From positions 1 to 30,044 of the IMG/VR virus record IMGVR_UViG_3300000117_000152: a stretch of 30,044 nucleotides of DNA; one strand, given 5' to 3'. Shown here one piece after another: positions 2,276 through 30,044 of the stretch; position 1 is the stretch's first letter, and each line of letters opens with the position of its first letter. A program made the position numbers and the translations under genes. Below the pieces are notes generated by a model, which searched no databases, was not told where the DNA came from, and saw only the letters and a program-made list of their open reading frames with translations. Source of the stretch: a virus.

Positions 2276-2857
2276 ATGGCTACAAATTACTTTGATACTG
2301 TCCCAGAAGGCTATCCGCATTCGATAGTTGCTGGCGATTTTGTACAATTCAAGCGAACTGATCTGGTCGCTACTTACGATCCCACTTTATACACAATGGA
2401 ATTCATTGCAAGAATTGCTGGCGGTGGGAACGAGATAAAAATTACTGCAACAAATGCTACAAGTCACTATTTGTTTCAGGCTGCTTCAGCAGATACTGAT
2501 ATGTGGAATGTCGGAGAGTATCACTGGCAGCTTGACGTAATTAGGATTTCTGACTCTGAGAGATATACGCTTGACCGAGGTCATAACCTTCAGGTTATTG
2601 CAGATCTTGATACAAATAATTCTGACCCACGGACGCATGAAGAAATAACGCTTGAGAAGATCCGTTCTTTAATTCAGGGCAAAGCCGATGCTGACGTGTC
2701 TTCCTACTCTATAGCTGGTAGGTCTTTGACTAAAATGACGTTTGCAGAACTTACTGAGGCTGAAGACTACTTCTCTAAGAAAGTTAAGGCTCAAATATCA
2801 AAGTTGGACGGACAACTTGATAGAGATACGGGCGCAACAATTAAAGTGAGGTTCTAA
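2276..2857 (+). CDS. Head connector-like protein with gpW-like C-terminus
   Basis: This 193-residue protein lies exactly where lambda has W, between terminase and portal. Residues about 1-115 look like a beta-sandwich (alternating hydrophobic strands, for example YTMEFIARIAGG and YHWQLDVIRIS). Residues about 120-193 (LEKIRSLIQGKADADVSSYS, then IAGRSLTKMTFAEL) follow the pattern of the small lambda gpW head-completion protein: a helix, a short beta hairpin containing a G-R-x-L turn, then a second helix. gpW caps the filled head and recruits the next connector protein. The ATG at 2276 starts four bases after the terminase stop, and the stop overlaps the portal ATG (TAATG). The N-terminal domain is an addition relative to lambda W, of unknown purpose. 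Role is inferred from position and pattern. Confidence 0.65.
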   Translation: MATNYFDTVPEGYPHSIVAGDFVQFKRTDLVATYDPTLYTMEFIARIAGGGNEIKITATNATSHYLFQAASADTDMWNVGEYHWQLDVIRISDSERYTLDRGHNLQVIADLDTNNSDPRTHEEITLEKIRSLIQGKADADVSSYSIAGRSLTKMTFAELTEAEDYFSKKVKAQISKLDGQLDRDTGATIKVRF

Positions 2858-4389
2858 TGGCGTTTTTTGACATTTTTAAGCGGAAAGAGATCGCTAAAGC
2901 CGTTTCTCGCAGAAATTATGCTGGGGTCAACGCTGGCAGACTGTTTGCTGACTTTCAAACGTCAGAAAGGTCTGCTGATAGTGAATTACGGTTCGCGTTA
3001 AAGATTCTGCGAAACAGATCCAGAGATCTTTCGATCAATAATGAGTATGTTAGGCGGTATTTTGAGCTGTTAAAGGTCAATATCATTGGCGAAAACGGCA
3101 TCCAATATCAGTCTAAAGCGTTAGATTCCGTCGGAAACTTAGATCAATCAGGAAACCAAGCTGTCGAATCCGCGTTTAAAATGTGGGGTAAATACGGCAA
3201 TTGTAGCGTTGATGGCAAGCTTTCTTGGATAGATATGCAGAAATTAGCTGTTGAATTAATGGCTAAAGATGGTGAAGCGTTCATTATTAAGCATAGAAAC
3301 GCACAGTTTAAGGATAGCTTCGCAATTGAGTTCATTGAGGCTGATCAGGTTGACGATCAATTAAACAAGAAGCTGGATAATGGCAACGAAATCAGAATGG
3401 GAATTGAGCTAAACAAGTTCAAGCGTCCAGTTGCTTATCATTTGTTGCAATATCATCCTGGCGACTTTGATTATGTGAATAACACCAAGGCAGCTAAGTA
3501 TCAAAGGATACCAGCAGATAACGTCATTCATTTATACAAGCAATTGCGTCCAGGTCAGACGCGAGGAGAGCCTTGGCTTGCTCCTGCTATTCCTGCAATT
3601 AAGCAGTTGGGTGCGTTTAGGGAAGCTGCGGTAGTAAATGCGCGTATTGGCGCGTCAAAAATGGGCTTCTTTACGTCTCCTGGCGGTGATGGATTTGTTG
3701 CAGATGATTATCAGGACAACACACCGATAATATCCGCCGAACCAGGAAGTTTCCACAATTTACCAAACGGCGTTGGGTTCGAAGCATTCGATCCTCAGTT
3801 CCCTAGCAACGACTTTGACGGCTTCCACAAGTCTATACTGAAGGGTATAGCAAGCGGTTTAGGAGTGTCTTATACGTCACTTAGTAACGATTTGGAGGCA
3901 ACATCCTATAGTTCTATCCGCCAAGGCGCATTAGAGGAAAGGGATTTCTATAAGAACATTATGGTTTTTGTAGTTGAGCACTTTGTTCGTCCGTTGTTTG
4001 ACTCTTGGCTTGAGGCGGCAATGGAAGTAGGGTCTTTCAACATCCCATTACGGCAATACGACCGATTCTCTTCAGCAGCAGAGTTCAGAGGCCGTGGTTT
4101 TTCATGGGTTGACCCACAGAAAGAGATGACGGCTGCGATTGCTGGTCTTCAGTCAGGGATACTGCCTTTGAATCATGTTGCTGCTCAATACGGCATGGAT
4201 ACCGAGGAACTGTTGTCGCAGATTGCTAGAGATAAGCAATTAGCAGAACAATTCGGCATTGAATACTCGCTAGAGCCTTTTGGTGGAGTTAGAAAAGAGG
4301 AGAAGCCAGAAGAAGAAGTCGATGATGGCGAACGGGGGTTAAATGAAGCTTTAGCGGAAAGTCTGCGAAGGTGCTTTGTTGAAGATTAA
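2857..4389 (+). CDS. Portal protein (lambda gpB family)
   Basis: Portal protein of 510 residues, which forms the twelve-fold ring at one capsid vertex through which terminase pumps DNA. Family features include the N-terminal pattern LRNRSRDLSINNEYVRRYFE (50-69), followed by NIIGENGIQYQ, the wing region EFIEADQVDD, the HLYKQLRPGQTRGEPWLAPA segment near 225-244 typical of lambda-type portals, and the C-terminal LEATSYSSIRQGALEERDFY stretch near 348-367 that lines the stem and crown. The length agrees with lambda gpB (533). It starts on the TAATG overlap with the preceding gene, so translation is probably coupled. The acidic tail (EEKPEEEVDDGE) overlaps the start of the collagen-like gene. No fusion to the protease is present, unlike the next head genes. 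Confidence 0.95.
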   Translation: MAFFDIFKRKEIAKAVSRRNYAGVNAGRLFADFQTSERSADSELRFALKILRNRSRDLSINNEYVRRYFELLKVNIIGENGIQYQSKALDSVGNLDQSGNQAVESAFKMWGKYGNCSVDGKLSWIDMQKLAVELMAKDGEAFIIKHRNAQFKDSFAIEFIEADQVDDQLNKKLDNGNEIRMGIELNKFKRPVAYHLLQYHPGDFDYVNNTKAAKYQRIPADNVIHLYKQLRPGQTRGEPWLAPAIPAIKQLGAFREAAVVNARIGASKMGFFTSPGGDGFVADDYQDNTPIISAEPGSFHNLPNGVGFEAFDPQFPSNDFDGFHKSILKGIASGLGVSYTSLSNDLEATSYSSIRQGALEERDFYKNIMVFVVEHFVRPLFDSWLEAAMEVGSFNIPLRQYDRFSSAAEFRGRGFSWVDPQKEMTAAIAGLQSGILPLNHVAAQYGMDTEELLSQIARDKQLAEQFGIEYSLEPFGGVRKEEKPEEEVDDGERGLNEALAESLRRCFVED

Positions 4390-5077
4390 CCAAGCGCTTG
4401 CAGTATTCCTTGAGCGACTGCAAAGACTTGACACAAAGGCCAAGGAGCAATTTGAAGCCCTAAACGAACAAATAGAGGTTGTTAGGGACTTTAAACTCAT
4501 CCCTGGAGATAAGGGAGAGACTGGCGAACAGGGCTTACAAGGCATAGAAGGCCCTACTGGTCGCGATGGTTTACAGGGCGAGCAGGGTATCCAAGGTCCA
4601 AAAGGTGAGACTGGTGCTCAAGGATCTCAAGGCTTGCACGGTGTGCAAGGTGAGCAAGGTCAGAAAGGCGACCGCGGTGAAAAGGGCCAAAAGGGCGATA
4701 AAGGGGAAAGAGGCGAAAGAGGCCCAGAAGGCAAGAAAGGTAAGGACGGTCGATCTGGCAGGATGCCTCGGCATAAGATTCAGAACGGAGCGATAGCTTT
4801 TGAGCAAAGCCCAGGAATATTCGGAGAATGGTTAAAGTTTGTACAGAACACCAGCTATTTTTCTGGAGGCGGAGCTAAGACTTGGATAGATTATGCAACA
4901 GGATTTAGCGTTGAGCCTACTCTTGTAGATACAATCGCGGCGGGAGACGTTTATCTGTATAATTACGATGGCAAAATTTTGTATCGGTTAGTCTCAGACT
5001 CAATTGATGCGTTTTATTCCGTTTACAGCGGCGGAGCAGTATCGGGACTGGTAGTCCAAAAATCAATGACAATTTAA
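4376..5077 (+). CDS. Collagen-like phage fibre protein
   Basis: This 233-residue protein has three parts. Residues 1-42 are a predicted coiled coil (FLERLQRLDTKAKEQFEALN and onward) suited to trimerisation. Residues 44-128 are 29 uninterrupted Gly-X-Y triplets with no gaps, rich in Gln at first and in KGD, KGE and ERGERG charge pairs later, which stabilise a bacterial-type triple helix without hydroxyproline. Residues 130-233 form a globular, glycine- and tyrosine-rich tip that may bind a surface. The start is TTG at 4376, chosen because GAAGG at 4367-4371 lies five bases upstream and no in-frame ATG precedes the triplets. It overlaps the portal gene by 14 bases. Collagen-like phage proteins are commonly virion fibres. 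Here head or neck attachment is suggested only by its place after portal. Confidence 0.85.
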   Translation: MLKINQALAVFLERLQRLDTKAKEQFEALNEQIEVVRDFKLIPGDKGETGEQGLQGIEGPTGRDGLQGEQGIQGPKGETGAQGSQGLHGVQGEQGQKGDRGEKGQKGDKGERGERGPEGKKGKDGRSGRMPRHKIQNGAIAFEQSPGIFGEWLKFVQNTSYFSGGGAKTWIDYATGFSVEPTLVDTIAAGDVYLYNYDGKILYRLVSDSIDAFYSVYSGGAVSGLVVQKSMTI

Positions 5078-5086
5078 GGAGTAGAA

Positions 5087-6793
5087 ATGGCATTCACGGC
5101 AGCAGATTGGTCAATTAACCGCGCGACAGGCGCAATTCGATACATTGGAGACGATCATGGTGGCGCTTCGCCTTCATACGCGACTGTCATTGAGTTTCAC
5201 CGAGCCCTTCAAGATTTTGCAGATGATGCAAGTTCTGCGGGTGACGATGAGCTAGACATTACTGATGAGAATCCGTCAGCACGTTCTACCGATAACATTA
5301 TCACGCTTTTGGGTTCTTACAACATCGATGACAATGCTTCCGAGCACCTTTATGACGGTTCTATCATTCAAGCATCTGGTGCCACGATCTATGACGGCAT
5401 TGTTAACTTTGGTAATGCTCCTGATATCCAAGTCGTCCAGAACGGCGCTGTTATTGTTGATGACTGGTGGAACAATGACAGCAACTCAGCAAGTTTAGGT
5501 CTTAACTCAAACGCTGCTGGCGGTATTTCCCATCGTTTCATGATCAAAGTCCGAGACGGCGGGTCGGATGTTGATGGCCGAAGATTACTAGGCTTGACCC
5601 GTGATTATGGTTTCAGCTATGGAGAATTTCAAATTTCTGCCACGGCAAGAGGCAATAATGTTTTAGCTTTATCTAGGGCAACTGACTTAAATAATCAAAC
5701 TGCAAGCGGAACTGTTGCAGCTTGGGATACTTCTGCCTCTACTCAAGGCTATGTTGAGCTTGATGTTGATAACAATGGGGTCAACGAAGCGTACTATATC
5801 GAATGGGATAAAGGCACTCAGACAGATGTCAATGATCTGTATGAGAAGGCAAAGTACATTACTCGCAACGGTACTGCTGAGACTTTATTCGGCTTGAACG
5901 GTCTTCTGTTCCGTGGTGTTACGCATGAAATTACCTTGAGTGCTAGAACTGGTACGTTCTCAGCGTTTGAAGCAGTAAGCTGGTCAGGCGGTACTGGTCA
6001 GATGTTAGCGATTGACTCTGTTACTGCTGGCACCAAGATGTGGATTCAGCTTCTAAGCGGTGTTGCTCCGACTAATACGCAAGTCATTACAGGTGTTTCA
6101 ACAGCAACTGGTACGGCTTCAGGTACGGCTGTCACTAGAACGCTAGAAACCACTGCTGCGCCAGGTTTGGGTGTTTCAACAGGTTCTGCTTTGATCGGTG
6201 TTTATGGTGCTGGTTCGCAAGATCTTGGGGCTTCTGACAGTGTTAAAGACTTAACCGATAGCATCAAGCAGCCGCCAAACAACGTGACTTTCACGGTTGG
6301 TGGTCTAGTTGCTAGTGAAGACCGAGTTTTGGTCGGGCCTTGGAACGGATCATCTACGGACGCTGAAGGTAATCCAGCGATTCAGGTTGATCAATTGTCA
6401 ATCAGTGGCGCTATAACGGGGACGGTAACGTCTGTTGTTGTTGCGGAGACTATTCCATCAGATACGCCAGCATCTGGTGTCATCCGAGTTCAGCTCGCCA
6501 GCGGTGCTTACAAGCGGGTTCCTTATACCAGTTACACAGCTTCGACTTTCACAATTGGGTCAACTGACTTCTCTGGCGATAATGCTGCCGACGGCGCTAA
6601 CGTCTGGATTGCGTACATCGACGTTCTGGCTAGCGCTACTAGCGCAAACTTCACTGGCGTTTACAGTTCAAACAGAAGCCTTGTTATTAAAGTCCGAGAT
6701 GGCGGAGCAAGTCCGATTAAAGAGTTCATCACATCAGGTGTATTAGGAAGCACTGGCGGGTCAGTAACGGCAATCAGAACAAGTGATGCCTAA
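5087..6793 (+). CDS. Large virion structural protein, probable appendage (568 aa)
   Basis: A 568-residue beta-rich protein with no signal peptide or membrane segment. Its N-terminus (FTAADWSINRATGAIRYIGD, then ATVIEFHRALQDFADDASS and STDNIITLLGSYNIDD) is a pattern I recognise from structural proteins of environmental tailed phages, but I cannot name a characterised member. RFMIKVRDGG near residue 152 and SLVIKVRDGG near 533 are a repeated motif, suggesting two related domains at either end of a Thr/Ser/Gly-rich middle (about 290-500) that resembles immunoglobulin-like or shaft repeats. A good ribosome site, AAGGAG at 5076-5081, precedes the ATG. It is the first of three large appendage-type proteins in the block between portal and capsid. 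Decoration, neck whisker or fibre are all possible. Confidence 0.6.
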   Translation: MAFTAADWSINRATGAIRYIGDDHGGASPSYATVIEFHRALQDFADDASSAGDDELDITDENPSARSTDNIITLLGSYNIDDNASEHLYDGSIIQASGATIYDGIVNFGNAPDIQVVQNGAVIVDDWWNNDSNSASLGLNSNAAGGISHRFMIKVRDGGSDVDGRRLLGLTRDYGFSYGEFQISATARGNNVLALSRATDLNNQTASGTVAAWDTSASTQGYVELDVDNNGVNEAYYIEWDKGTQTDVNDLYEKAKYITRNGTAETLFGLNGLLFRGVTHEITLSARTGTFSAFEAVSWSGGTGQMLAIDSVTAGTKMWIQLLSGVAPTNTQVITGVSTATGTASGTAVTRTLETTAAPGLGVSTGSALIGVYGAGSQDLGASDSVKDLTDSIKQPPNNVTFTVGGLVASEDRVLVGPWNGSSTDAEGNPAIQVDQLSISGAITGTVTSVVVAETIPSDTPASGVIRVQLASGAYKRVPYTSYTASTFTIGSTDFSGDNAADGANVWIAYIDVLASATSANFTGVYSSNRSLVIKVRDGGASPIKEFITSGVLGSTGGSVTAIRTSDA

Positions 6794-6796
6794 TAC

Positions 6797-8377
6797 ATGG
6801 CCTCGCCTGCAATAACGAACGCCCCTCAAACGATTAGTACCGCCGAGTCCACTACGGGCTGGGCGGGAACATCTCTTACCTTAGACCCCGACATTCGCAG
6901 AGAGGGGACGAATTCGGTTGCATCAACTCTCAGACAAAACAATTCAACGACCCTTTACAGTGGCGCTAACCTTCCTGCGGCTCTTAATGAGCAAACAATC
7001 CGATTGTGGTGTACAAACTCTTTAACGCCTTACATGAGATCTTTTGCGTTAGAGGGCTTCAGCCTGGTCGTAAATACTGGGTCGTTGGGGTATTACACGG
7101 TTGCGGGGTTTGACACCTACAATGGCGGCTGGCTAAATATCGCTATAACCGTTTCTTCTACTGTATCGCCAACATCTGGCACGGTGACGGCAACGAACAA
7201 CGTGTCACAAATCGGAGTTCGTTTTAGGCGAAATTCTGCGCCTCGAAATATTAACAATACTTGGTTGGACTATCTCCGTTATGGTGACGGCTATACAGTC
7301 ACTGGCGGAACTGCTGGCGACCCTATTACCCCCGTTACTATTGCCGCTTCTGACAACGCTTCTGGATATGGAATATTGGAGCGCAAGGACGGTGTGGTTT
7401 TTGGGTCTGGGATGTTGGAGATTGGCGCGGGCGCAACTGCGACAGATTTTGACAGCGTTGGCGACGTAATAGTCTTTCTGGAGAACCAATACACACGCTC
7501 AAGCCTATACAAGATTGCCGCAGTCGGCTCTGGATGTAATGTTTTGTTCGACGGCTCAGTGGTAAAAACGGCTGGGAATCTTACAAATAATAAATTCGTT
7601 TTTGATTTTTCCGATACAGCGCCAACAGTAACGATTACTGGCTGCTTGCTAGACAAGGCAGATACAAGCACCTTTGCCCCTGGCCAATCCATAACATCAA
7701 ATACGTTTAACCAATGCGGATCAATACTGCCATCTGGCGCTACATTCACTGGGAACACAATAAAAGACTCTACAGGATCTGCTTCTGTCACTTGCACAAT
7801 AGCTGATCTTGCAAACGTCACTGGCAACACGTTTGAGTCAGATGGCTCTAGCCATGCGGTTGAGTTGACAGGTACTGCGGCAAGTTTTACTTGGGACAAC
7901 GATACTACGGGTTATGCAAGTGGAAGCACTGGTAGTCCTGTCACGCCTACCGCTACTGGAAACGAAGCAATATTCGTTAACATTGCGAGCGGTACAATAA
8001 CAATTAATGTCGCTGATGGTGCGGCTATCCCATCCATACGTTCAGCAGGTGCCACGGTGAACGTATTGGCAGGTCAAAGAACATTCACGGTGACGGTAAA
8101 GAATATCGACACTGGATCGGCGCTAGAAAACGCCAGAGTCTATGTGACTGCCGCGGCTGGTGGCGGCTTGTCAGAAGGCACAGTTATCATTGACAAAGTG
8201 TTAACTAACGCCAGCGGTCAGGTTTCAGACACTAGAAGTTATGGATCTGATCAGCCTTACACTGGATCAATTAGACTTGCTTCATTGGGTAATTACTACA
8301 AGGCAACATCGATTTCAGGAACAATATCAAGCTTAACAAATACATCAATAAACGTGAGCCTAATACCTGATGACTGA
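6797..8377 (+). CDS. Virion structural or adhesin-like protein with beta-helix-like repeats (526 aa)
   Basis: A 526-residue protein of unknown function, Ser/Thr/Gly/Asn-rich throughout. Residues about 15-165 look like a lectin-type beta sandwich (GWAGTSLTLDPDIRREG at its start). Residues about 190-400 contain short imperfect repeats of the T-G-N-T or I-T-G-C type (TITGCLLDKAD, ITSNTFNQCG, TGNTIKDSTG, VTGNTFESDG), the pattern of a right-handed beta-helix. Residues about 430-526 (RTFTVTVKNIDTGSALENAR and onward) look like an immunoglobulin-like or carboxypeptidase-regulatory-like domain. Such layouts are typical of carbohydrate-binding phage appendages. The start at 6797 is three bases after the previous stop, with only a weak ribosome site, so coupling is likely. 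The end overlaps the next start by eight bases. Confidence 0.55.
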   Translation: MASPAITNAPQTISTAESTTGWAGTSLTLDPDIRREGTNSVASTLRQNNSTTLYSGANLPAALNEQTIRLWCTNSLTPYMRSFALEGFSLVVNTGSLGYYTVAGFDTYNGGWLNIAITVSSTVSPTSGTVTATNNVSQIGVRFRRNSAPRNINNTWLDYLRYGDGYTVTGGTAGDPITPVTIAASDNASGYGILERKDGVVFGSGMLEIGAGATATDFDSVGDVIVFLENQYTRSSLYKIAAVGSGCNVLFDGSVVKTAGNLTNNKFVFDFSDTAPTVTITGCLLDKADTSTFAPGQSITSNTFNQCGSILPSGATFTGNTIKDSTGSASVTCTIADLANVTGNTFESDGSSHAVELTGTAASFTWDNDTTGYASGSTGSPVTPTATGNEAIFVNIASGTITINVADGAAIPSIRSAGATVNVLAGQRTFTVTVKNIDTGSALENARVYVTAAAGGGLSEGTVIIDKVLTNASGQVSDTRSYGSDQPYTGSIRLASLGNYYKATSISGTISSLTNTSINVSLIPDD

Positions 8378-8579
8378 TGTAACCCACAAGAACATTCTTG
8401 CGGTTATGCAGCACTCAAAGAACAACAAGGCTGAGATAGACGATTTATTTGGCTTGGTTAATCAGTTGCAAGCTGAGAAGATGCTTCTCAATCAGCGAAT
8501 AGATATGATGATGCAGCAAATCCAAAGATTACAAGTAACTCTATATAGCGGAGGTGCGACAAGTGGCGATCTCCATTAA
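8370..8579 (+). CDS. Small coiled-coil protein
   Basis: This 69-residue protein of unknown function is dominated by a predicted coiled coil at residues 20-56 (KAEIDDLFGLVNQLQAEKML then NQRIDMMMQQIQRLQVTL), with Leu, Ile or Met at heptad positions. The tail ends GGATSGDLH. Its start overlaps the previous stop by eight bases and its 3' end carries the ribosome site of the next gene, so the three are translationally linked. A small oligomerisation or linker protein for the neighbouring appendage proteins is plausible but not shown. Confidence 0.6.
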   Translation: MTDVTHKNILAVMQHSKNNKAEIDDLFGLVNQLQAEKMLLNQRIDMMMQQIQRLQVTLYSGGATSGDLH

Positions 8580-9723
8580 TTGGGGTACTAAGGTAATAAG
8601 CATCCCAAGAAACGACATGACTTTGATCCAGGCTGTTCCGACTGAGATCCGTCAGCTTAATCTGGATACTTTTAGGCTTACACTGAAGAATCTGGAAGAC
8701 TCCGACGATGGAATGGCGTTTGAGCGTACTCACAGCCATAACACATCAGTCACAGTTGGTGGTGTAACTCTGGCGCGTGTAATTGAGATGATTAACGGTT
8801 ACTCAGTTACATTTGAAGATGGTCAGTACGCTGTCAACCTAGTCGGTGCCAATTCTAATGTCGGAGATGTGGTTAATGTTAATCAGGTCTCGGTTAGATC
8901 TGCCAACTCAGCAGGCTTGCAGGACTTATCGGTTATCCTTTCTGCGGCATACAACGGCGAGATTTGTATAGATCCGATTAACGGTCAGCCAGGTACAGAC
9001 GTTCCGATTGGCACTAGAACCCAGCCAGTAAATAACTTCGACGACGCCAAAGCGCTTGCGTTAAAAGAAGGTGCAAGAATAATCAGGATTCTTGAGTCTA
9101 CAACCTTGTCAAATACTGACTTTTCAGAAGGTTATGTTTTCACATCTGACAATCCTGGCGTTACCGTATTAACGGTTGAGCCTTCTGCTAATGTTCAGTA
9201 TTGCGAGTTTAATAATGTATCAGTTCAAGGCACTGCTGACGGCAACAACGTATATAGGAATTGTGTCTTATTAGATATTTCGTTCACTTCTGGGTTTATT
9301 TTCCAGTGTTCTTTAAACGGTAACATTCAAATCAACGGTGGTGAGCTTCTAGCCTTGCTGTCTTGCTTCTCAAACAGACTTTCTGGCGCTCAGCAGCCGA
9401 TCATTGACTTTAATGGTAATGGTCAGTTGATTCTGCGAGACTACCAAGGAGCAATTGAATTGCGGAATCACACAGACACAAGCGGTGATGGCGATCTATG
9501 TTTAGACTTTAGCTCTGGCGTTTGTATCATCCATCCTAGTGTCACAGCAGGTTATATACCTGTCAGGGGTGTTTGCAGGGTTGTAGACAACTCTACAGGA
9601 GTGGCAAATGTGGTTGATGAGACGGTTAATAAACTTGTCGGAAGCAATGCAACAGCGCTTGGCGTGATAAATACAGGCGTTCAGAAAGCGTCGAAACTTA
9701 TTCCACATAACACTAATATTTGA
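8563..9723 (+). CDS. Virion structural protein, appendage or tail-associated (386 aa)
   Basis: A 386-residue protein starting at GTG 8563, chosen because GGAGG at 8550-8554 sits eight bases upstream; an in-frame GTG at 8554 would lie inside that ribosome site. The N-terminal 120 residues (AISINWGTKVISIPRNDMTL, then VTVGGVTLARVIEMINGYSV and TFEDGQYAVNLVGANSNVGD) form a compact domain I recognise from structural proteins of many environmental phages, but its role is not established to my knowledge. After NVNQVSVRSANSAGL comes a beta-helix-like region (about 180-330, repeats such as VQYCEFNNVSVQGTADGNNV) containing several Cys residues. The order, small anchor domain then beta-helix, fits a short fibre or spike. 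It overlaps the coiled-coil gene by 17 bases and ends 39 bases before the protease-capsid gene. Confidence 0.6.
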   Translation: MAISINWGTKVISIPRNDMTLIQAVPTEIRQLNLDTFRLTLKNLEDSDDGMAFERTHSHNTSVTVGGVTLARVIEMINGYSVTFEDGQYAVNLVGANSNVGDVVNVNQVSVRSANSAGLQDLSVILSAAYNGEICIDPINGQPGTDVPIGTRTQPVNNFDDAKALALKEGARIIRILESTTLSNTDFSEGYVFTSDNPGVTVLTVEPSANVQYCEFNNVSVQGTADGNNVYRNCVLLDISFTSGFIFQCSLNGNIQINGGELLALLSCFSNRLSGAQQPIIDFNGNGQLILRDYQGAIELRNHTDTSGDGDLCLDFSSGVCIIHPSVTAGYIPVRGVCRVVDNSTGVANVVDETVNKLVGSNATALGVINTGVQKASKLIPHNTNI

Positions 9724-9748
9724 TAATCTAAGCACTATTAGTTATAAG
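9720..9748 (+). promoter_or_regulatory. Possible promoter before the capsid gene
   Basis: TTGATA (9720-9725) and TATAAG (9743-9748) are each five-of-six matches to the sigma70 boxes, with an ideal 17-base spacer. This is the largest gap in the head region and precedes the gene that needs the highest expression. Against it, a start seven bases after the -10 box would fall at or just past the ribosome site AAGGA (9751-9755), leaving little leader. It is a candidate only. Confidence 0.3.
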
Positions 9749-9762
9749 CTAAGGATAAATCC

Positions 9763-11649
9763 ATGGAAGATTTACAAGCAACAGAAGAATTCGATGGGCC
9801 ATTGCCTGATTCCGTGGTGGAAGAAGTAGTTGAAATCGAAGTAGATGAGGAATATAGAGCTATGGCTGAAGATATGGGTCGAAAGGTCGATACCGTATCC
9901 CATAGAGCTATGGAAATGGATAAAGGGCCTATTGACGTAGAAGCCCGAACCGCAATGATTTTACTTTCAACCGAAGAACCTGTTGAGCGTTCTTTTGGTA
10001 TGGAAGTCTTAGAGCATACAGCCGAAGCGATAGATATGAGTTTTATCGCATCAGGCAGAGCGCCCCTTTTGTTGGACCATGATCCAACCAAGGTCATAGG
10101 CGTGTTGGAATCAATCGAACTGGACAGCGAAACGCGGCGACTCCGCGCAAAGGTACGTTTTGGACGAAACGGACTGGCCGCTGAAGCGTTTGATGATTGT
10201 GTTGATGGGATTAAGTCCAACATATCCGTTGGATACTCAATCAACAAATTAGAAAAGCGAGGATCAGATACTTATGTAGCGAAGTCCTGGCGTCCCGTTG
10301 AGGCTAGTCTTGTTGCCATTCCTGCTGACCCAGGATGTGCTATCGGACGGTCTATGGGCAACCCACAAACCGAAAAACCACATATTGAGGTAATAACAAT
10401 GTCTGAAGAAAATGTAGTAGACGTTGCTGCGGTTCAAAGTGAAGCTCGAAAGGCCGAACAAAAGAATGCAGCACAAATCGTTGAGCTTGGCTCACGGCAT
10501 GGCAAATCTGACTTGGCACAACGTGCAATTTCAGAAGGTCGATCAATCGAAGAGTTCCGAGGCGAACTGTTGGACGTAATTGGTTCGCAGAAAGCTTTGG
10601 AAGACACGCAAATTGGCCTGACTCCTAAAGAAGCTAAGAGATTTAGCATCTTGCGAGCAGTTAATGCTCTCGCTAACCCAACTGACCGACGCGCACAAGA
10701 AGCTGCGGCATTCGAATTCGAATGTTCACGAGCTGCTTGTGACCAGTATGGCCGAACGACTCAAGGTATTATGTTGCCTTCTGACGTTATGCGTAACTGG
10801 ACGCGTGACTTGAACACCACTGATGATTCAGCAGTATTGACGGAAGATTTCCGCGCTGGTGATTTCATCGACGTACTCCGAAACTCTTCTAGCGTAATGC
10901 AAGCTGGTGCTCGGGTACTTGGTGGTCTTAACAGCACTGTAACGATCCCTAAGAAAGCTACTGCCTCAACCGCAGCTTGGCTTGCTACTGAAGGCGCTAA
11001 CGTAGCTCAAACCGAACCTACTTTCGGTCAAGTGACGATGGCACCAAAAGATTTGGGTTCTTATGCTCAAGTAACTCGCAGAATGCTGCAAGAGCAAACT
11101 ATGGATTTGGAAGCCCTTATCCGTGATGATCTTGCACAAGCTATTGCTCTGGCAATGGACTTAGCAGCACTGCGCGGCGATGGCACTGGTGGCTCGCCCA
11201 CTGGTATCAAGAGCACTGCTGGTATCAATGCAGTTGACTTCGGTACTTCTCCGATCACCATCCCAAGCTACGCTAAAGTAGTTGAGATGGAAACGGCAGT
11301 TGCTGAAGATAATGCTTTGATGGGCAATCTTGCGTACATTCTTTCTGCCAACATGTATGGCGGGTTGAAGACTACTGAGAAAGCGTCTGGCACTGCTCAG
11401 TTTGTAGTTGAGCCTGGAAACACGATCAACGGCTACCGTGGTATTGTTTCTAATCAAGTTGAATCTGGCGATCTTTACTTCGGTAATTTCTCTGATTTGT
11501 TGGTTGGCTTCTGGGGCGGTTTAGACCTGCTCTTGGATCCTTACACCAACGGCTTGAGCGGCACCATGCGAATCCGCGCCATCCAAACAATGGATGTTGC
11601 AGTTCGACATGCACAGTCTTTCGCACTCGGCAACGACGGCGGCAGCTAA
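9763..11649 (+). CDS. Fused prohead protease and major capsid protein (HK97-type)
   Basis: One 628-residue frame encodes two proteins usually made separately. Residues about 40-205 are an HK97 prohead protease (family S78): His106 in LLLDHDP, Ser155 in SNISVGYS and Glu180 in RPVEASL have the order and motif setting of the catalytic triad. Residues 213-330 are helical and charged (SEARKAEQKNAAQIVELGSR and onward), like the delta or scaffold domain that is cleaved off. From about 330, the HK97-fold capsid follows: TIPKKATASTAAW, EGANVAQTEPTFGQVTM, YAQVTRRMLQEQTMDLEALI and LRGDGTGGSPTGI are typical motifs. A ribosome site TGAGG with ATG at 10399 (Met213) would give the capsid part alone. No separate scaffold gene is present. 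The start at 9763 follows AAGGA at 9751-9755. Confidence 0.95.
   Translation: MEDLQATEEFDGPLPDSVVEEVVEIEVDEEYRAMAEDMGRKVDTVSHRAMEMDKGPIDVEARTAMILLSTEEPVERSFGMEVLEHTAEAIDMSFIASGRAPLLLDHDPTKVIGVLESIELDSETRRLRAKVRFGRNGLAAEAFDDCVDGIKSNISVGYSINKLEKRGSDTYVAKSWRPVEASLVAIPADPGCAIGRSMGNPQTEKPHIEVITMSEENVVDVAAVQSEARKAEQKNAAQIVELGSRHGKSDLAQRAISEGRSIEEFRGELLDVIGSQKALEDTQIGLTPKEAKRFSILRAVNALANPTDRRAQEAAAFEFECSRAACDQYGRTTQGIMLPSDVMRNWTRDLNTTDDSAVLTEDFRAGDFIDVLRNSSSVMQAGARVLGGLNSTVTIPKKATASTAAWLATEGANVAQTEPTFGQVTMAPKDLGSYAQVTRRMLQEQTMDLEALIRDDLAQAIALAMDLAALRGDGTGGSPTGIKSTAGINAVDFGTSPITIPSYAKVVEMETAVAEDNALMGNLAYILSANMYGGLKTTEKASGTAQFVVEPGNTINGYRGIVSNQVESGDLYFGNFSDLLVGFWGGLDLLLDPYTNGLSGTMRIRAIQTMDVAVRHAQSFALGNDGGS
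10399..11649 (+). CDS. Internal in-frame start: major capsid protein alone (alternative product)
   Basis: An ATG at 10399, in frame with the fused gene, follows TGAGG (10386-10390) by eight bases. It opens at MSEENVVDVAAVQSEARK, exactly where the protease domain ends and the helical delta-like region begins. Initiation here would give a 416-residue capsid precursor, close to the usual size for HK97 gp5-type proteins (385), in excess over the full-length fusion. This matches the known need for far more capsid than protease. It is inferred from sequence only; the alternative is that the whole chain is made and cut by the protease. Confidence 0.55.
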   Translation: MSEENVVDVAAVQSEARKAEQKNAAQIVELGSRHGKSDLAQRAISEGRSIEEFRGELLDVIGSQKALEDTQIGLTPKEAKRFSILRAVNALANPTDRRAQEAAAFEFECSRAACDQYGRTTQGIMLPSDVMRNWTRDLNTTDDSAVLTEDFRAGDFIDVLRNSSSVMQAGARVLGGLNSTVTIPKKATASTAAWLATEGANVAQTEPTFGQVTMAPKDLGSYAQVTRRMLQEQTMDLEALIRDDLAQAIALAMDLAALRGDGTGGSPTGIKSTAGINAVDFGTSPITIPSYAKVVEMETAVAEDNALMGNLAYILSANMYGGLKTTEKASGTAQFVVEPGNTINGYRGIVSNQVESGDLYFGNFSDLLVGFWGGLDLLLDPYTNGLSGTMRIRAIQTMDVAVRHAQSFALGNDGGS

Positions 11650-11663
11650 ATAGCTATGAGATA

Positions 11664-11683
11664 GGGGGGCTTATCGGCCCCCC
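11664..11683 (+). terminator. Strong GC hairpin after the capsid gene
   Basis: GGGGGGC (11664-11670), a six-base loop TTATCG and GCCCCCC (11677-11683) form a perfect 7-pair stem. It begins 14 bases after the capsid stop and lies before the next ribosome site GAGG at 11691-11694. There is no run of T after it (GATTCTT), so it may be a partial terminator or an mRNA 3'-end stabiliser that keeps capsid message abundant relative to the tail genes. Confidence 0.55.
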
Positions 11684-11700
11684 GATTCTTGAGGTGAACT

Positions 11701-11907
11701 ATGAAGTATCAAGTAGTTAGAAATTGTGTTATTGCTGGACAGAGCCATCAAGCAGGATCTGTCGTTGAAGTAGGCGTAGATGACGCCACAGTTTTAATGG
11801 GTATGGGCAGAATCATGCCTTATGCCGAACCAGTTGTTGAGAACCGTTCTGTTGAGCTAGACAAGGCTCCAGAAAAGACTGTTAAGAGGAAGAAGAATGC
11901 CAGTTGA
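11701..11907 (+). CDS. Small protein following the capsid gene
   Basis: This 68-residue protein has no recognised function. Its first 45 residues (KYQVVRNCVIAGQSHQAGSV, VEVGVDDATVLMGMGRIMPY) resemble a small beta-barrel fold, shared in general form with short proteins found after capsid genes in many phages. The tail (DKAPEKTVKRKKNAS) is basic. A GAGGTGA ribosome site six bases upstream supports the start. The gene overlaps the next start by 11 bases. A minor head, decoration or connector role is suggested by position alone. Confidence 0.6.
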   Translation: MKYQVVRNCVIAGQSHQAGSVVEVGVDDATVLMGMGRIMPYAEPVVENRSVELDKAPEKTVKRKKNAS

Positions 11908-12199
11908 GACTGCTGCTGACAGGTTAGTTATGCTCAATGACTTTGGGGTCAATTGCACATACACTCCTGACGGCGGTGCTCCTGTTGTTATTCGTACAAT
12001 TCTTCTAAACGATTATTATGCTGTAGAGACAGGCACTGTATCGGTTGAGGTTAACCAGCCCATAGCTGTAATTAGGACCGCAGATGCAGCGGCTATATCG
12101 CACAACGATATAATGGTTATTGAAGGTATAACGTACAAAGTAGTTAATATTAGGCCAGATGGCACAGGTATTTCAGAGATTCAGTTGGAACAGCAATGA
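11897..12199 (+). CDS. Head-tail joining protein (lambda FII-like)
   Basis: This 100-residue protein is at the position of lambda gpFII, the head-completion protein that presents the tail-binding face under the portal. The second half (PIAVIRTADAAAISHNDIMV, IEGITYKVVNIRPDGTG) matches the FII pattern, in which a conserved R-T-x-x-x segment leads to a strand pair of the form G-D-x-x-x-I then F/Y-x-V-x-x-I-x-P-D-G. A strong ribosome site (GAGGAAGAAG at 11886-11895) precedes ATG 11897. The stop overlaps the next gene as ATGA, so it is coupled to the tail terminator. Sequence similarity to FII is by pattern only, but size, place and neighbours agree. Confidence 0.65.
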   Translation: MPVETAADRLVMLNDFGVNCTYTPDGGAPVVIRTILLNDYYAVETGTVSVEVNQPIAVIRTADAAAISHNDIMVIEGITYKVVNIRPDGTGISEIQLEQQ

Positions 12200-12639
12200 G
12201 CCATGTTCGCCAACAGATAAGAGAGCAAATTGGTACGATCCTTACGGGATTAGCATCCACTGGCTCTAATGTTTATGAGTCTAGGGTGTATCCTTTAAAC
12301 GAGTCAAACTTACCAGCGCTTTTGATATACACTAAGGCAGAGACATCATCTATCAGCACCATAGGGACATCTCTTGGCGTAGATAGAGAAATAACGGTTA
12401 TAGTTGAGGTGTACGTTAAAGCGAATTCTAACTTTGACGATACCGTGGATACTGTTTGCGCTGAAGTTGAGGTTGCAATGGGAAGCAACCGCACATTAAA
12501 CGATACGGCTCGATTTAATTACCTAGAGAGCACAGACATAGAATTTAGCGGAGACGGGGAGAATCCTGTGGGTGTTGCTACGATGAGTTTCATTGTACAA
12601 TATCGAACGCTACAAAATGCTCCAGAAACCTCAATATAG
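12196..12639 (+). CDS. Tail terminator protein (lambda gpU-like)
   Basis: This 147-residue protein is probably the tail terminator, which forms a hexameric ring that stops tail-tube growth and binds the head connector. It opens with an amphipathic helix (VRQQIREQIGTILTGLASTG), then VYPLNESNLPALLIYTKAE and a long beta-strand region (REITVIVEVYVKAN), then a helix (DDTVDTVCAEVEVAMG) and closing strands including VATMSFIVQYRT. This is the gpU-type alpha-beta order. Its length is close to lambda gpU (131). It starts on the ATGA overlap and is followed after ten bases by a small protein and then the tail tube gene, the usual neighbours of a tail terminator. Confidence 0.75.
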   Translation: MSHVRQQIREQIGTILTGLASTGSNVYESRVYPLNESNLPALLIYTKAETSSISTIGTSLGVDREITVIVEVYVKANSNFDDTVDTVCAEVEVAMGSNRTLNDTARFNYLESTDIEFSGDGENPVGVATMSFIVQYRTLQNAPETSI

Positions 12640-12844: not shown

Positions 12845-13242
12845 TGGCTAGCTTTATTGGTCGAAACGGAATTGTAAAAGTTGGTGATAATGCCGTCCTA
12901 GAGGTTAAAAGCTTTAGCGTTGAAGAGACAAACGATACTGTCGAAACGACGAAAATGGGCGATCTTTCTCGAACGCATTTGATTACTTTGTCAAGCTGGT
13001 CTGGGACAGTAGATGTTTTCTGGGATCCAAGCGATACGACAGGGCAGGTTCTTTTAGAAGGCTCAAGCACTGCTGTAGCTCTTAAGCTTTACCCAGATTC
13101 TGATGATACTGGTAAGACCTACTACGGTGGAAACGCTTTGGTAACTGGCGTATCTCGAAGCACTAGCTTTGACGGGATGGTAGAAGCTTCTATTAGCGTA
13201 ACTGGAACAGGGCCATTAACTCCTGCTCTTGAACCTGCATAA
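12844..13242 (+). CDS. Major tail tube protein
   Basis: This 132-residue protein is the probable subunit of the tail tube, stacked as hexameric rings around the tape measure. It begins GRNGIVKVGDNAVLEVKSFS, then VEETNDTVETTKMGDLSRTH, the typical tube start: a strand, an N-V-x-x-W/F-like turn, and a D-T-x-x-x-T-x-x-G-D motif. Later strands include SWSGTVDVFWDP, VALKLYP and GNALVTGVSRS, and the end is the usual SISVTGTGPLTP pattern. AAAGGAG at 12830-12836 is a good ribosome site. Both ends overlap neighbours as TAATG, placing it in one translational unit with the chaperone gene. It lacks the extra C-terminal Ig-like domain of lambda gpV. Confidence 0.85.
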   Translation: MASFIGRNGIVKVGDNAVLEVKSFSVEETNDTVETTKMGDLSRTHLITLSSWSGTVDVFWDPSDTTGQVLLEGSSTAVALKLYPDSDDTGKTYYGGNALVTGVSRSTSFDGMVEASISVTGTGPLTPALEPA

Positions 13243-13571
13243 TGCCAGGAATAATTGATAACGCTATTGAACACTTCAATTCGAAGGAAGTTCGTAAAAC
13301 AGAAGTCCCAGAATGGGAGTCAACGGTATATGCCAAGAATCTGACGTTGGAAGACAAAGCCAAGATGCTAAAACGCTCTGGCGATGACAACACGGATTAT
13401 TTGGTATATGCGTTGATCTTCGGTCTAGTCGATGAGAAAGGCGACTCCGTCTTCACGCTTGAGGATAAGGTCGCGCTTCGCAAGAGAGTTGATCCTGATA
13501 TTGTCAGCAGGCTTGCTACTTTTGTTCTTGCAGCGGAAGGAGTAAGCGAAGAGGACAGGGAAAAAAACTAA
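13242..13571 (+). CDS. Tail assembly chaperone, short form (lambda gpG analogue)
   Basis: This 109-residue protein is the short form of the tail assembly chaperone, which coats the tape measure during tail assembly and is not kept in the virion. It is helical and charged (LTLEDKAKMLKRSGDDNTDY, LVYALIFGLVDEKG, then LEDKVALRKRVDPDIVSRLA). Like other gpG analogues, it ends right at a slippery sequence, A_AAA_AAC at 13562-13568, immediately before its stop codon (TAA 13569-13571). Place between tail tube and tape measure is the standard one. It starts on the TAATG overlap with the tube gene. Confidence 0.88.
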   Translation: MPGIIDNAIEHFNSKEVRKTEVPEWESTVYAKNLTLEDKAKMLKRSGDDNTDYLVYALIFGLVDEKGDSVFTLEDKVALRKRVDPDIVSRLATFVLAAEGVSEEDREKN

Positions 13572-13762
13572 TAAATGACCAAGGCATCCCGACTCAGCTA
13601 TACTGGATGTATGAGTTAGCAGAGCGTCTTGGTCAGCCACTTTCGACAATTATGGATATGACTGTTGCCGAGTTCGACCACTGGTGGACTTTCTTGAGAA
13701 TCAAACAAGAGAAGAATAATGGCAGCAGTAGTAAATCAAGACATAATAACCGCAACAATTAG
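13242..13762 (+). CDS. Tail assembly chaperone, -1 frameshift product (lambda G-T analogue)
   Basis: A -1 slip at A_AAA_AAC (13562-13568) joins the short chaperone to a downstream reading frame that runs from 13568 to the TAG at 13760-13762, adding 64 residues for a 173-residue product. After the slip the protein reads LINDQGIPTQLYWMYELAER, then LGQPLSTIMDMTVAEFDHWW and TFLRIKQEKNN. The pattern with W-x-Y-E-L-A-x-R-L-G and E-F-x-x-W is typical of the gpT half, which recruits tail tube subunits. This extension has no good start of its own and overlaps the tape measure gene by 44 bases, as in lambda. Expression ratio is not readable from sequence. Confidence 0.88.
13562..13635 (+). promoter_or_regulatory. 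Programmed -1 ribosomal frameshift signal
   Basis: The slippery heptamer A_AAA_AAC (13562-13568) is in the correct reading phase. After a seven-base spacer, TGACCAAGGC (13576-13585) pairs with GTCTTGGTCA (13626-13635), giving ten pairs with one G-U. Inside the loop ACTC (13592-13595) pairs with GAGT (13613-13616), and ATAC (13600-13603) with GTAT (13609-13612). Heptamer, spacer and structured stem are the three standard parts of a -1 signal. Confidence 0.85.
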
Positions 13763-17547: not shown

Positions 17548-17936
17548 TGATATTGAAAGTCTACCAGGCCCTAAATAAGTGGGAAAAAAAAGAGTTTGAA
17601 TATGGCTCAGTAGACTGCTGCCAGTTCGCTGGGTTTGTTGTAAAAGAGCTAACAGGCAAAGACTATCTTTCCGATTTCCATTATAATTCTGAGCAAGACG
17701 CTGAAATCCTAGTTAAAGATTTTGGAGACTTAGAGGACACAGCGGCAAGCGTATTAGGTGATCCAACTGAAGATATAGACTCTCTTCCAGATGGTTCGCC
17801 AGTTATAGTAAAAACTCCTGACGGGCAAATTATGGGCGTCAAGCTTGGTGATAAAGCTGTTTGCTTAGTCAAGAAAGGTTTAAAGCAGATCCCAAGGGAA
17901 TATATAGCATCAGGATTTAAATTATGGGGCCATTAA
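17547..17936 (+). CDS. Tail assembly protein, NlpC/P60-type cysteine-protein-like (DUF6950 pattern)
   Basis: This 129-residue protein is at the position of lambda gpK, an NlpC/P60-type peptidase that acts at the tail tip on cell-wall peptides. The segment VDCCQFAGFVVKELTGKDYL (residues 24-43) has the D-C-x-x-F start typical of the catalytic Cys helix. The strand pair SPVIVKTPDGQIMGVKLGDK looks like the region that normally follows, and AVCLVKKGLKQIPREYIASG ends it. I do not see a clear H-x-G-x-Y motif for the partner His, so it may be inactive or a structural relative. It overlaps its neighbours at both ends (TAATG before, 13 bases after). Confidence 0.7.
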   Translation: MILKVYQALNKWEKKEFEYGSVDCCQFAGFVVKELTGKDYLSDFHYNSEQDAEILVKDFGDLEDTAASVLGDPTEDIDSLPDGSPVIVKTPDGQIMGVKLGDKAVCLVKKGLKQIPREYIASGFKLWGH

Positions 17937-20900
17937 CACCAGTTCTAGTAGCAGTAATGAAAGTCGGATATTTTGTTGCAGAAGTTGCAATGGGAGCTGC
18001 TTTCGCTGGTGGCCTAGGTGGAGTAGCAGCGCTTGCAATTGGTGCTGCGGTAGTTGTTGGCGGATATGCTTTAACTAAAAGCTTCTTTGAAGTTGAGATG
18101 CCTACAGTTGATACAGACGCGTCCAGGCAGAGAACTGTCAAATCTACAACAGAGCCCCAAAAGATCGTATACGGCGAGGCATTGGTATCTGGCCCGATTT
18201 CTTTTATTGGGTTATCGGGTGTCGATAACTCTGATCTTTATCAGTCTATTGTACTAGCAGGTCATCAGGTAACTGCTATTACTAACATCCACATGGATGA
18301 TGAGATTATTTTAAATAATCAAATAGACGGAAGCGGCAACGTAACTGGCGGAAAGTTTGGGCCAAAGGGAAGTCCATTAAGCACTATTTGCGTCATAAGC
18401 AAACATCTTGGTGTGGCTACAGAAACAGCAGATAGTCTTCTTACGCCTTTTGCGAATTATACCGCAAATCATAGAGGGGATGGTTTAGCCTATATCGTCA
18501 CCAAATGGACGCTTAACGCAGATTCTTCTGATACTTGGGAGAAATATTCTCCTTCTAACGTCAAAGCATTGGTACAAGGTAAGGCTGTTTTCGATCCGAG
18601 AACAAATACCACAGCCTATTCGACAAACCCAGCATTGTGCGTTATCGACTATCTCACGGATACCTATCTTGGTATGGGCATTCCATCAAGCAAGATCGAT
18701 TGGGATGCTGTTGAAGTCGCGGCAGACGGTTGTGATGCCCTAGTTAATGTTCCTGGTGGACAAGAATCTAGGTTTACATGCAACGGCGTTCTATTTTGTA
18801 CTGACTCTCATCAAAAAAATATAAATAAGATCCTGAGTGCTATGAATGGGTCTTTAGTTTTTAGCAACGGCAAATACATTGTTAGAGCTGGCATACCTGA
18901 GACCGCAGCAATTACTTTAGACGAAAACGATCTTAGAGGATCCATTTCTTTAAAGACTAGCTTGGAAGCAAGCGCCAGAGTCAATACTGTAAAAGGTCTG
19001 TTTATTGATCCAGCTCAGAATCACAAGTCAACCGAGTTTCCAAAGGTTCAAATTCAAACAGCCTTAGAAAGAGACAACAATAGGGTTATGGAAAAAGAAG
19101 TCCAGTTCCCTATGACGAACTCTTCTTATATGGCGCAAAGACTTGCTCACAAAACAATTCAACGGGAAAACCTACAAAAAGTAATTACTTTCCCCGCTAA
19201 TTATTCCGCATTAAGGATTGCATCTGGTGATAGGGTAAATGTCAAAGTTGAAGAGCTTGGATGGACTCAGGAATTATACGAATGTGTAGGTTGGACGTTT
19301 AGCGAAGAGGGCGGAGTAAGTCTTACCCTTAGAGAAGACTCTCCTTTTGCTTATGCTGATCCTCTTGTTGCTGAGTATTCCACGGTTTCAGCCACTGGCG
19401 TTATAACTGACGCCTTTAGAGGAGTTCCTGCTCCTTCTGCATTAAGCGGAATATCGTCAGAAAATAAGGTCTACTTAAATTGGACTAATCCAGAAAAACC
19501 TGACGATTATAACACTATCCATGTATTTTACTCTGACACACCAGACTTTGTTGATTCAGTCAAGCTAGGTGAGACTGATGGCGACGAGTACATTCACGGA
19601 GGATTAACTGCTGGTGAAACAAAATATTATTGGGTAAGGGCTGTTAAGAACAAAGATTTACAGTCCATCTTAAATCCTCCAACTGCTGGCGTAGGAGTAT
19701 TAGTCGTCGATGTTCTTGTTGATTGGGACAATGTTGCATCTCCTACTATTGGGATTGATCTGACCAACGATACTATTTCTATTGATCTGGGATCCACTGG
19801 ATCGACTACTGGTAGAGATGTAGCTCAGAGTGGTATTTCCGAAGATGTGACTATTTCATCTGGCGGGATATTAATGAATGGTGGCGGCGCTATCCGTGGT
19901 GGTCAAAGTGCATACAACAGCGGCACAGGGTTTTTCCTTGGCTACGATACGGACGCCTATAAATTTAGCATTGGTAATGCTAGCGACCAATTCCTTAAAT
20001 TTGATGGGCAAGATTTTACTATTAGCGGAAACATTACGGCGACCTCTTTAGCTTTAGAATCAGGTGTGACAATTGGTTCGTCCAACCTAGATACAGCCGT
20101 GCAAACAAGTCTAGGTTTAGCTGATAATTCAAACCAAGACTCAACAACAGACATTAGGGCAGGAACCACAGCAGAAGATATTGGATACTCAGGGCCTCTT
20201 TCTGGGGGTGGATTTGTTTCAGTCGTAAAACCAGGGTATGGGCATTTTGACGGCCTTAGTGATACTTCTGGTTTTGGCACATCATTGCAAGGCATTCCTT
20301 CAACTAGAAGTTTTGACACCTCAATATTTAGAGTAGGAACTCAGTCAATAAAGCAAAACGGCAACACGGGCGGCGTAGGATTTTATAGCCCTGCAAATAC
20401 TCTAAATCTAATACCTGGCAGAAAGTGGATGATGACTTTCTGGGTGCGCGCAACCAGCACATTAGGCGTATGGAATGTAGGCATTCACGATAGCGTAGGA
20501 CTCACTAATGGCACCTCTACGGCTCTATCCGCAGCGAACGCTTGGGAATTCAAGGCTGCGGTAGTTGACTTAACCTCCTCAACTTCTTCAACGGGTTATT
20601 ATCGAATCTATAACAACAATTTCACAAGCGGAAGTGCTTACTTTGACGCTATAAGCATCTTTGATATTACTGAAGCTAGTAGCGTGACTGTTGGTAACGT
20701 GTCACAAAATTATTTTTCTCCTTTGGCACAAGCAGTGTCAATAGACACGGATAAGGTAAACGGAATAGAAGCCTCTATTGTACAAAGCGGAGCGCAAGCA
20801 GGATCCACTGCGATACAAGACAATACCTTTGGATTGACTTTAGGTTTGCAAGCTGGGTCAGCGGGGCCAATAACAATTTCCTACACCCCTGCGGATGGTG

Positions 20901-29813: not shown

Positions 29814-30044
29814 ATGTTTAAATATTTTAAGCTAGAGGAATTTGATTGCCAAGAGACTGGGGAAAATGAGATCGAAGAAGAATTTGTTCACGCGCTGGAC
29901 TCATTACGTTTTGAAGCTGGGTTTCCTTTTGTCATTACGAGCGGCTATCGGTCTCCTCGTCATAGCATCGAAGCCAAGAAAGCAGTACCTGGACAGCATA
30001 CGACAGGCCGCGCTGCTGATATTGCTGTTAATGGCGGGGCTCAG
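29814..30044 (+). CDS. Endolysin, M15-family peptidase (truncated at the window end)
   Basis: The first 77 residues of a peptidase of the M15 type (zinc D-Ala-D-Ala or L-Ala-D-Glu peptidase), which cuts peptide cross-links of the cell wall during lysis. YFKLEEFDCQETGENEIEEE is the usual opening. Then FVITSGYRSPRHSIEAKKAV has the conserved S-G-Y-R-S-P-x-H segment, and PGQHTTGRAADIAVNG gives the H-x-x-G-x-A-A-D-I motif. These supply two His and the Asp of the zinc site (His51, His63 and Asp70 in this numbering). The expected third zinc ligand and C-terminus lie beyond the window. The start follows a weak ribosome site. Confidence 0.88.
   Translation, partial: MFKYFKLEEFDCQETGENEIEEEFVHALDSLRFEAGFPFVITSGYRSPRHSIEAKKAVPGQHTTGRAADIAVNGGAQ

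Follow-up and report, generated by a model that had tools for sequence, protein, structure and literature searches.

In this study, a linear marine virus record of 30,044 bases (IMG/VR record IMGVR_UViG_3300000117_000152, the whole of which is referred to as the window) was analyzed for five genes lying between its portal and capsid genes. They encode a collagen-like protein (slot 0), a 568-amino acid (aa) protein (p568, slot 1), a 526-aa protein (p526, slot 2), a short coiled coil (slot 3), and a spike (p389, slot 4). Together they probably constitute a self-contained, horizontally mobile virion-appendage cassette, modular like the horn cassette of cyanophage Syn5, and the appendage would most likely project from the head and bind host glycans.

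Insertion at the portal-capsid junction

The window has the layout of a lambda-like siphovirus, in the order TerL, head-tail joining protein, portal, the five genes, capsid protein, and head closure onward, followed by the tail genes for the tape measure, the distal tail protein, and a 3131-aa J-type tail tip. The closest cultured backbones are those of Roseobacter phages CRP-811 and CRP-406, members of the CRP-822-type family (PMC12629253), which share the packaging and tail gene order of the window and have portals 48–52% identical to its own. Both phages have an empty site, with the portal overlapping the capsid gene and no cassette, and in the more distant Synechococcus phage S-CBS3 the portal and capsid genes adjoin. 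An earlier note, made from the sequence alone, had stated that lambda-like phages go directly from portal to capsid, and this is true of all three. The five genes are an insertion at the portal-capsid junction, and within the window's own clade the cassette is found here in more than 10 partial IMG/VR contigs.

All five open reading frames (ORFs) were found where the note had placed them, on the plus strand and tightly packed, each overlapping or abutting the next. They are not chance ORFs, since changes among relatives fall mostly at the third codon position, indicating purifying selection, and since the order is kept across independent contigs.

Cassette positions in other phages

The five-gene order, which the note had proposed to look for in other phages, is present in locus L009 (collagen-568-526-69-389). 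This locus is podovirus-like, with TerL, portal, and capsid proteins from other families than those of the window, and its cassette is placed after an endolysin gene at the end of the tail and lysis genes. Identity to the window is 70–74% for slot 1 and 83% for slot 4. In myoviruses L045, L123, and L127, the tail sheath gene comes directly after the cassette. At other loci, the cassette lies between TerL and portal (L152), after the portal (L166 and L167), after the capsid gene (L035, L043, and L044), or ahead of TerL (L015, L023, L027, L029, L059, and L142). The cassette is thus present with all three tail types. Among loci outside the window clade with a recognizable head gene, 18 of 24 had the cassette no more than 1.5 kb away from TerL, portal, or capsid, compared with 42% under a random placement that serves as a crude null. 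From these varied positions it follows that the cassette is mobile and not tied to a tail type, with a bias toward head genes. Placement in the head module, which the note took as the telling feature, is not supported as such, given the positions in L009 and the myoviruses.

These positions also bear on a different explanation, namely that the genes encode an accessory tail-side fibre or tailspike complex, a modular adsorption cassette carried on the neck collar, tail tube, or baseplate and not on the head. Such a complex would suit the sheath gene downstream in the myoviruses, the tail-fibre-like protein ahead of the cassette in L045, the 1625-aa virion protein and endolysin preceding it in L009, and the slot-4 model, which weakly matches tailspike and beta-helix folds. 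However, phages with long, with short, and with contractile tails all carry the cassette; therefore, its docking site is not one tail protein, unless the adaptors differ. Its tendency to adjoin TerL, portal, or capsid genes and its remote relationship to Syn5 horn proteins (see below) also argue against a tail-side location, which we regard as rather unlikely.

Relation to the Syn5 horn cassette

The gp53-gp54-gp55 cassette of Syn5 (EF372997) is conserved in approximately 30 further phages, the gp53-type carriers being S-TIP28, Maribacter phage Panino, Virus Rctr197k, ctPCi537, and 27 IMG/VR contigs. A Foldseek comparison of the p568 model matched Syn5 gp54 (prob 1.00, template modeling (TM) score 0.24), which was used as a lead only. 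Comparison of our profiles with single Syn5 proteins gave nothing, and matches needed family profiles; these comparisons were run with reversed and shuffled controls, which remained at background. By hhalign, p568 (108 sequences) matched the gp53 family at 89.9% and 1.7e-6 over 290 columns (reversed control 0.4%), and the N-terminal domain of p389 matched that of gp55, aligned alone, at 92.3% and 5.6e-7 (reversed control 0.1%). By HMMER, gp53 had no match in any of 114 p568 loci and the p389-gp55 link was undetectable; hence the latter relationship is remote.

Closer links were observed in the variable parts. The p526 body is common to slot-2 proteins of environmental gp53-type cassettes (hidden Markov model, E = 1e-47) and matched Rctr197k_179 by BLASTP (3e-10 over 323 aa), and the p389 tip was also found on gp55-type anchors (E = 2.6e-80). 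A direct homology of p526 to Syn5 gp54 (100%, 4.5e-45) was considered and rejected, the gp54 family having been joined through its C-terminal domain.

The Syn5 proteins gp53 and gp54 carry structural-protein annotations and reportedly form the horn. The horn of Syn5 stands at the vertex that lies opposite its tail, and the capsid bears knobs (PMC10575957). Assignment of gp55 to the knobs is doubtful, and Hryc and Baker found that the gp55 model does not fit the knob density (PMC9207676). Because its gene neighborhood is conserved and because gp53 and gp55 have a common N-terminal domain (97.8%, 7e-13), our data suggest that gp55 belongs with the horn proteins. A head appendage is thus plausible beyond gene order, as the remote relatives of the cassette proteins are Syn5 horn proteins.

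Collagen-like proteins were found with both cassette types: besides the window, the circular siphovirus ctPCi537 (L078, MW202577) has, at 5420–12222, a gp54-gp53-gp55 cassette and behind it a 713-aa protein annotated as 'collagen alpha 1'.

Partition of domains between the two cassette types

In loci with a 568-type slot 1, the slot-2 C-terminal domain was of the 568 type in 88 and of the other type in 3 (weak matches), and the slot-4 N-terminal domain was of the 568 type in 88 and of the other type in none. Loci of the gp53 type had their own slot-2 C-terminal domain (n = 30) and their own slot-4 N-terminal domain (n = 30), with 0 and 0 of the 568-type versions. In contrast, both types have slot-2 bodies in common (80 and 17 proteins), and likewise slot-4 tips (42 and 6). 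The loci were picked by the slot-1 gene only; therefore, the partition in slots 2 and 4 is no selection effect. Both slot-1 types occurred together only in L095, a gp53-type locus in which a 753-aa protein (L095:15795-18056) joins a p568-like body to a gp54-type C-terminal domain and so bridges the two types.

The natural reading of this pattern is that there would be two socket systems drawing on a common stock of plug-in bodies and tips, with the partitioning domains as the probable contacts. Since the pattern predicts which domains touch, it is testable with few purified proteins. A role of the collagen protein as adaptor would fit as well, because its C-terminal domain travels with the cassette, whereas its N-terminus is restricted to the portal-capsid clade.

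Properties of the five genes

Positions of the cassette genes and the two flanking genes are listed in Table 1.

Table 1. Cassette and flanking genes of the window (AF2, AlphaFold2; pLDDT, predicted local distance difference test)
Feature	Position	Strand	Match or remark
Portal protein, left flank of insertion	2857..4389	+	PF05136 6.9e-92
Slot 0, collagen-like protein, 233 aa	4376-5077	+	Pfam Collagen 1.6e-16
Slot 1, 568-aa beta-rich protein (p568), proposed hub/base	5087-6793	+	AF2 pLDDT 88.8
Slot 2, 526-aa beta-rich protein (p526)	6797-8377	+	Body ~aa 60-420; C-terminal docking domain (putative) ~aa 462-526 (window 8180-8374)
Slot 3, 69-aa coiled coil	8370-8579	+	Conserved SGGATSG-H tail at end
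Slot 4, 386-aa spike (p389)	8563-9723	+	N-terminal anchor 8563-8922; beta-helix-like tip 8923-9720
Protease-fused HK97-type major capsid protein, right flank	9763..11649	+	phrog_617 6.1e-141; Pfam Phage_capsid 1.2e-42

The slot-0 gene starts with TTG and overlaps the portal gene by 14 bp. Its product has an N-terminal coil of approximately 43 aa, Gly-X-Y repeats at aa 44–136, and a C-terminal domain of approximately 100 aa (aa 134–233; window 4775–5074), which recurs directly upstream of 568-aa genes and, in L054, L148, and L163, forms genes of 89–109 aa without most of the remainder. The N-terminal 45 aa were found only in the portal-capsid clade.

Of all parts of the cassette, p568 is the most widely conserved. 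No Pfam or PHROGs family matched the window protein, no match was found in 50,697 GenBank phages with three diverse queries, and no PDB sequence matched the p568 profile meaningfully; among 41 p568 relatives, one matched a single family without function, at 0.0073. The matches of p568 in a Foldseek search of the PDB were all to beta-rich proteins at low TM scores and were not used. The IMG/VR database held 345 p568 relatives. Around 115 p568 loci, a 526-type protein was within reach in 97 and a 389-type protein in 88, and the genes behave as one unit, in agreement with the suggestion of a multi-part structure apart from J. Eleven contigs with p568 relatives (L061-L071) had been binned into bacterial metagenome-assembled genomes, several of Patescibacteria and others of Omnitrophota, Acidimicrobiia, and further groups, which could reflect either phages with a very wide spread of hosts or misbinning.

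The fastest-evolving member is p526, which is 44% identical to its counterpart in L056, compared with 61–75% for the other proteins compared. Slot 2 in L017, L031, L032, and L039 is occupied by a variant family of 690–955 aa in place of the usual protein of approximately 530–600 aa. In 56 of the 115 loci, slots 2 and 4 were separated by a short coiled-coil-like ORF, with a heptad contrast of 0.40 against 0.24 for shuffled sequences (s.d. 0.10).

The slot-4 ORF was called at 8554–9723, but GTG at 8563 is the better start, because GGAGG lies 8 bases upstream and the family consensus MAISIDW is matched; the resulting 386 aa agree with the length quoted earlier. The slot-4 AF2 model (pLDDT 85.9) has a beta-rich anchor and a beta-helix-like tip, whereas several relatives (approximately 135–225 aa) are an anchor alone, with no tip. 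Slot 4 in L017, L031, and L032 is such an anchor-only protein, of approximately 150–180 aa. The description of all five proteins as beta-rich stands for the 568-aa and spike models and fails for the collagen protein and the coiled coil.

Proposed assembly and function

We propose that p568 would act as the hub, on which p526 would dock by its C-terminal domain while displaying its variable beta-rich body. The coiled coil in slot 3 may join or trimerize the part that follows it, and p389 would be the spike, held by its N-terminal anchor and bearing an exchangeable tip. The C-terminal domain of the collagen protein would bind the set, and its lineage-specific N-terminus would fit the appendage to the particle. 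The most likely site for such an assembly is the head, where it would project from a vertex or the neck, and it could make the first, reversible contact with host-surface glycans ahead of commitment by the J tail tip. Reversible glycan binding is suggested because the tips are exchangeable, the p526 body evolves fast, and the head spikes of the Rhodobacter capsulatus gene transfer agent (RcGTA) appear analogous.

In a different reading, the set might be a knob- or cement-like decoration that stabilizes the capsid and has no host-binding role. The conservation of p568 and p389 is nearly at the level of portal and capsid proteins, and Syn5 also has knob proteins proposed as capsid stabilizers (PMC10575957). 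The fast-evolving body and the exchangeable beta-helix-like tips nevertheless resemble recognition parts, no relative of gp58 was found, and, as mentioned above, the gp55 model misfits the Syn5 knob density (PMC9207676), which makes a purely stabilizing set improbable. Very improbable, in our estimate, is that the proteins are produced in infection but kept outside the virion, for example secreted or displayed on the surface. Some relatives consist of the anchor domain alone and proteomic data for the family were not found, but the genes lie within the structural operon, a secretion motif was not noticed on inspection by eye with no formal test, and gp53 and gp54 of Syn5 are annotated as structural.

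Several points weigh against a head-projecting, glycan-binding appendage. Neither virion proteomics nor electron microscopy was found for 568-type phages, the L009 cassette follows tail and lysis genes, proximity to head genes is a tendency only, and the p389 tip resembles tailspikes. The p568-gp53 link is moderate, and Foldseek instead favors gp54 with a low TM score; the body of Syn5 gp54 is unrelated to that of p526 (0.1%), and gp56, gp57, and gp58 had no match in window proteins and none convincing in the 115 loci. A role in adsorption is weakened by the reported failure of antibodies against Syn5 horn proteins to block infection.

Further features of the window

A likely programmed -1 frameshift was noted at 13242–13740, where the ORF at 13242–13571 closes just past GGGAAAAAAAC and another frame stays open beyond it up to the tape-measure gene, comparable to the lambda G/GT tail-assembly chaperones. 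The J-type protein (17924–27319; 3131 aa) is much longer than the tail protein at the equivalent site in CRP relatives (approximately 960–970 aa), and its C-terminus matches the tail-fibre families phrog_5481 and phrog_14572. The record stops within an endolysin/peptidase gene (phrog_894; 29814–30044), a relative of which lies immediately upstream of the cassette in podovirus L009.

Comparison with known systems

The 568-aa family is undescribed and widespread, while the general kind of appendage is known yet barely characterized. The suggestion of an undescribed appendage therefore stands for the family and the cassette type; the general kind has already been described, because the Syn5 horn cassette is a relative. 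A structural family with at least 345 environmental p568 relatives has thus escaped annotation, with no match in the phage records searched. To our knowledge, horn-like head appendages are known from essentially one cultured cyanophage, and the cassette offers a route to the purpose of the Syn5 horn. Were the appendage to set host contact, phages of different tail types would, in this cassette, be exchanging a determinant of their host range. A broader idea, on which we remain nearly evenly divided, is that horn-like head appendages may be a general plug-in virion organ, with two interchangeable sockets and common bodies and tips moving among sipho-, podo-, and myoviruses by way of lineage-specific adaptors.

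The RcGTA head spikes (Rcc01079 base and Rcc01080 fibre) stand on the capsid and bind capsular polysaccharide (PMC10218006). Their base and fibre organization is alike, as a comparison of how the parts may work only; the p568, p526, and p389 profiles had no relevant PDB match, the RcGTA genes not having been compared singly. The head fibres of phi29 and the gp12 spike of SPP1 are single-protein fibres or spikes. They are head-borne, and collagen-like trimers occur in head decoration (PMC7602432); Pfam, PHROGs, and PDB searches gave no sequence relation to them beyond the collagen repeat. The Syn5 horn cassette differs in having another slot-1 protein and other docking domains, and the window cassette has the collagen protein and the coiled coil in addition and is missing gp56-58. 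Three slots, namely 1, 2, and the anchored 4, recur in both cassettes, and that of Syn5 is likewise located near a head gene, TerL.

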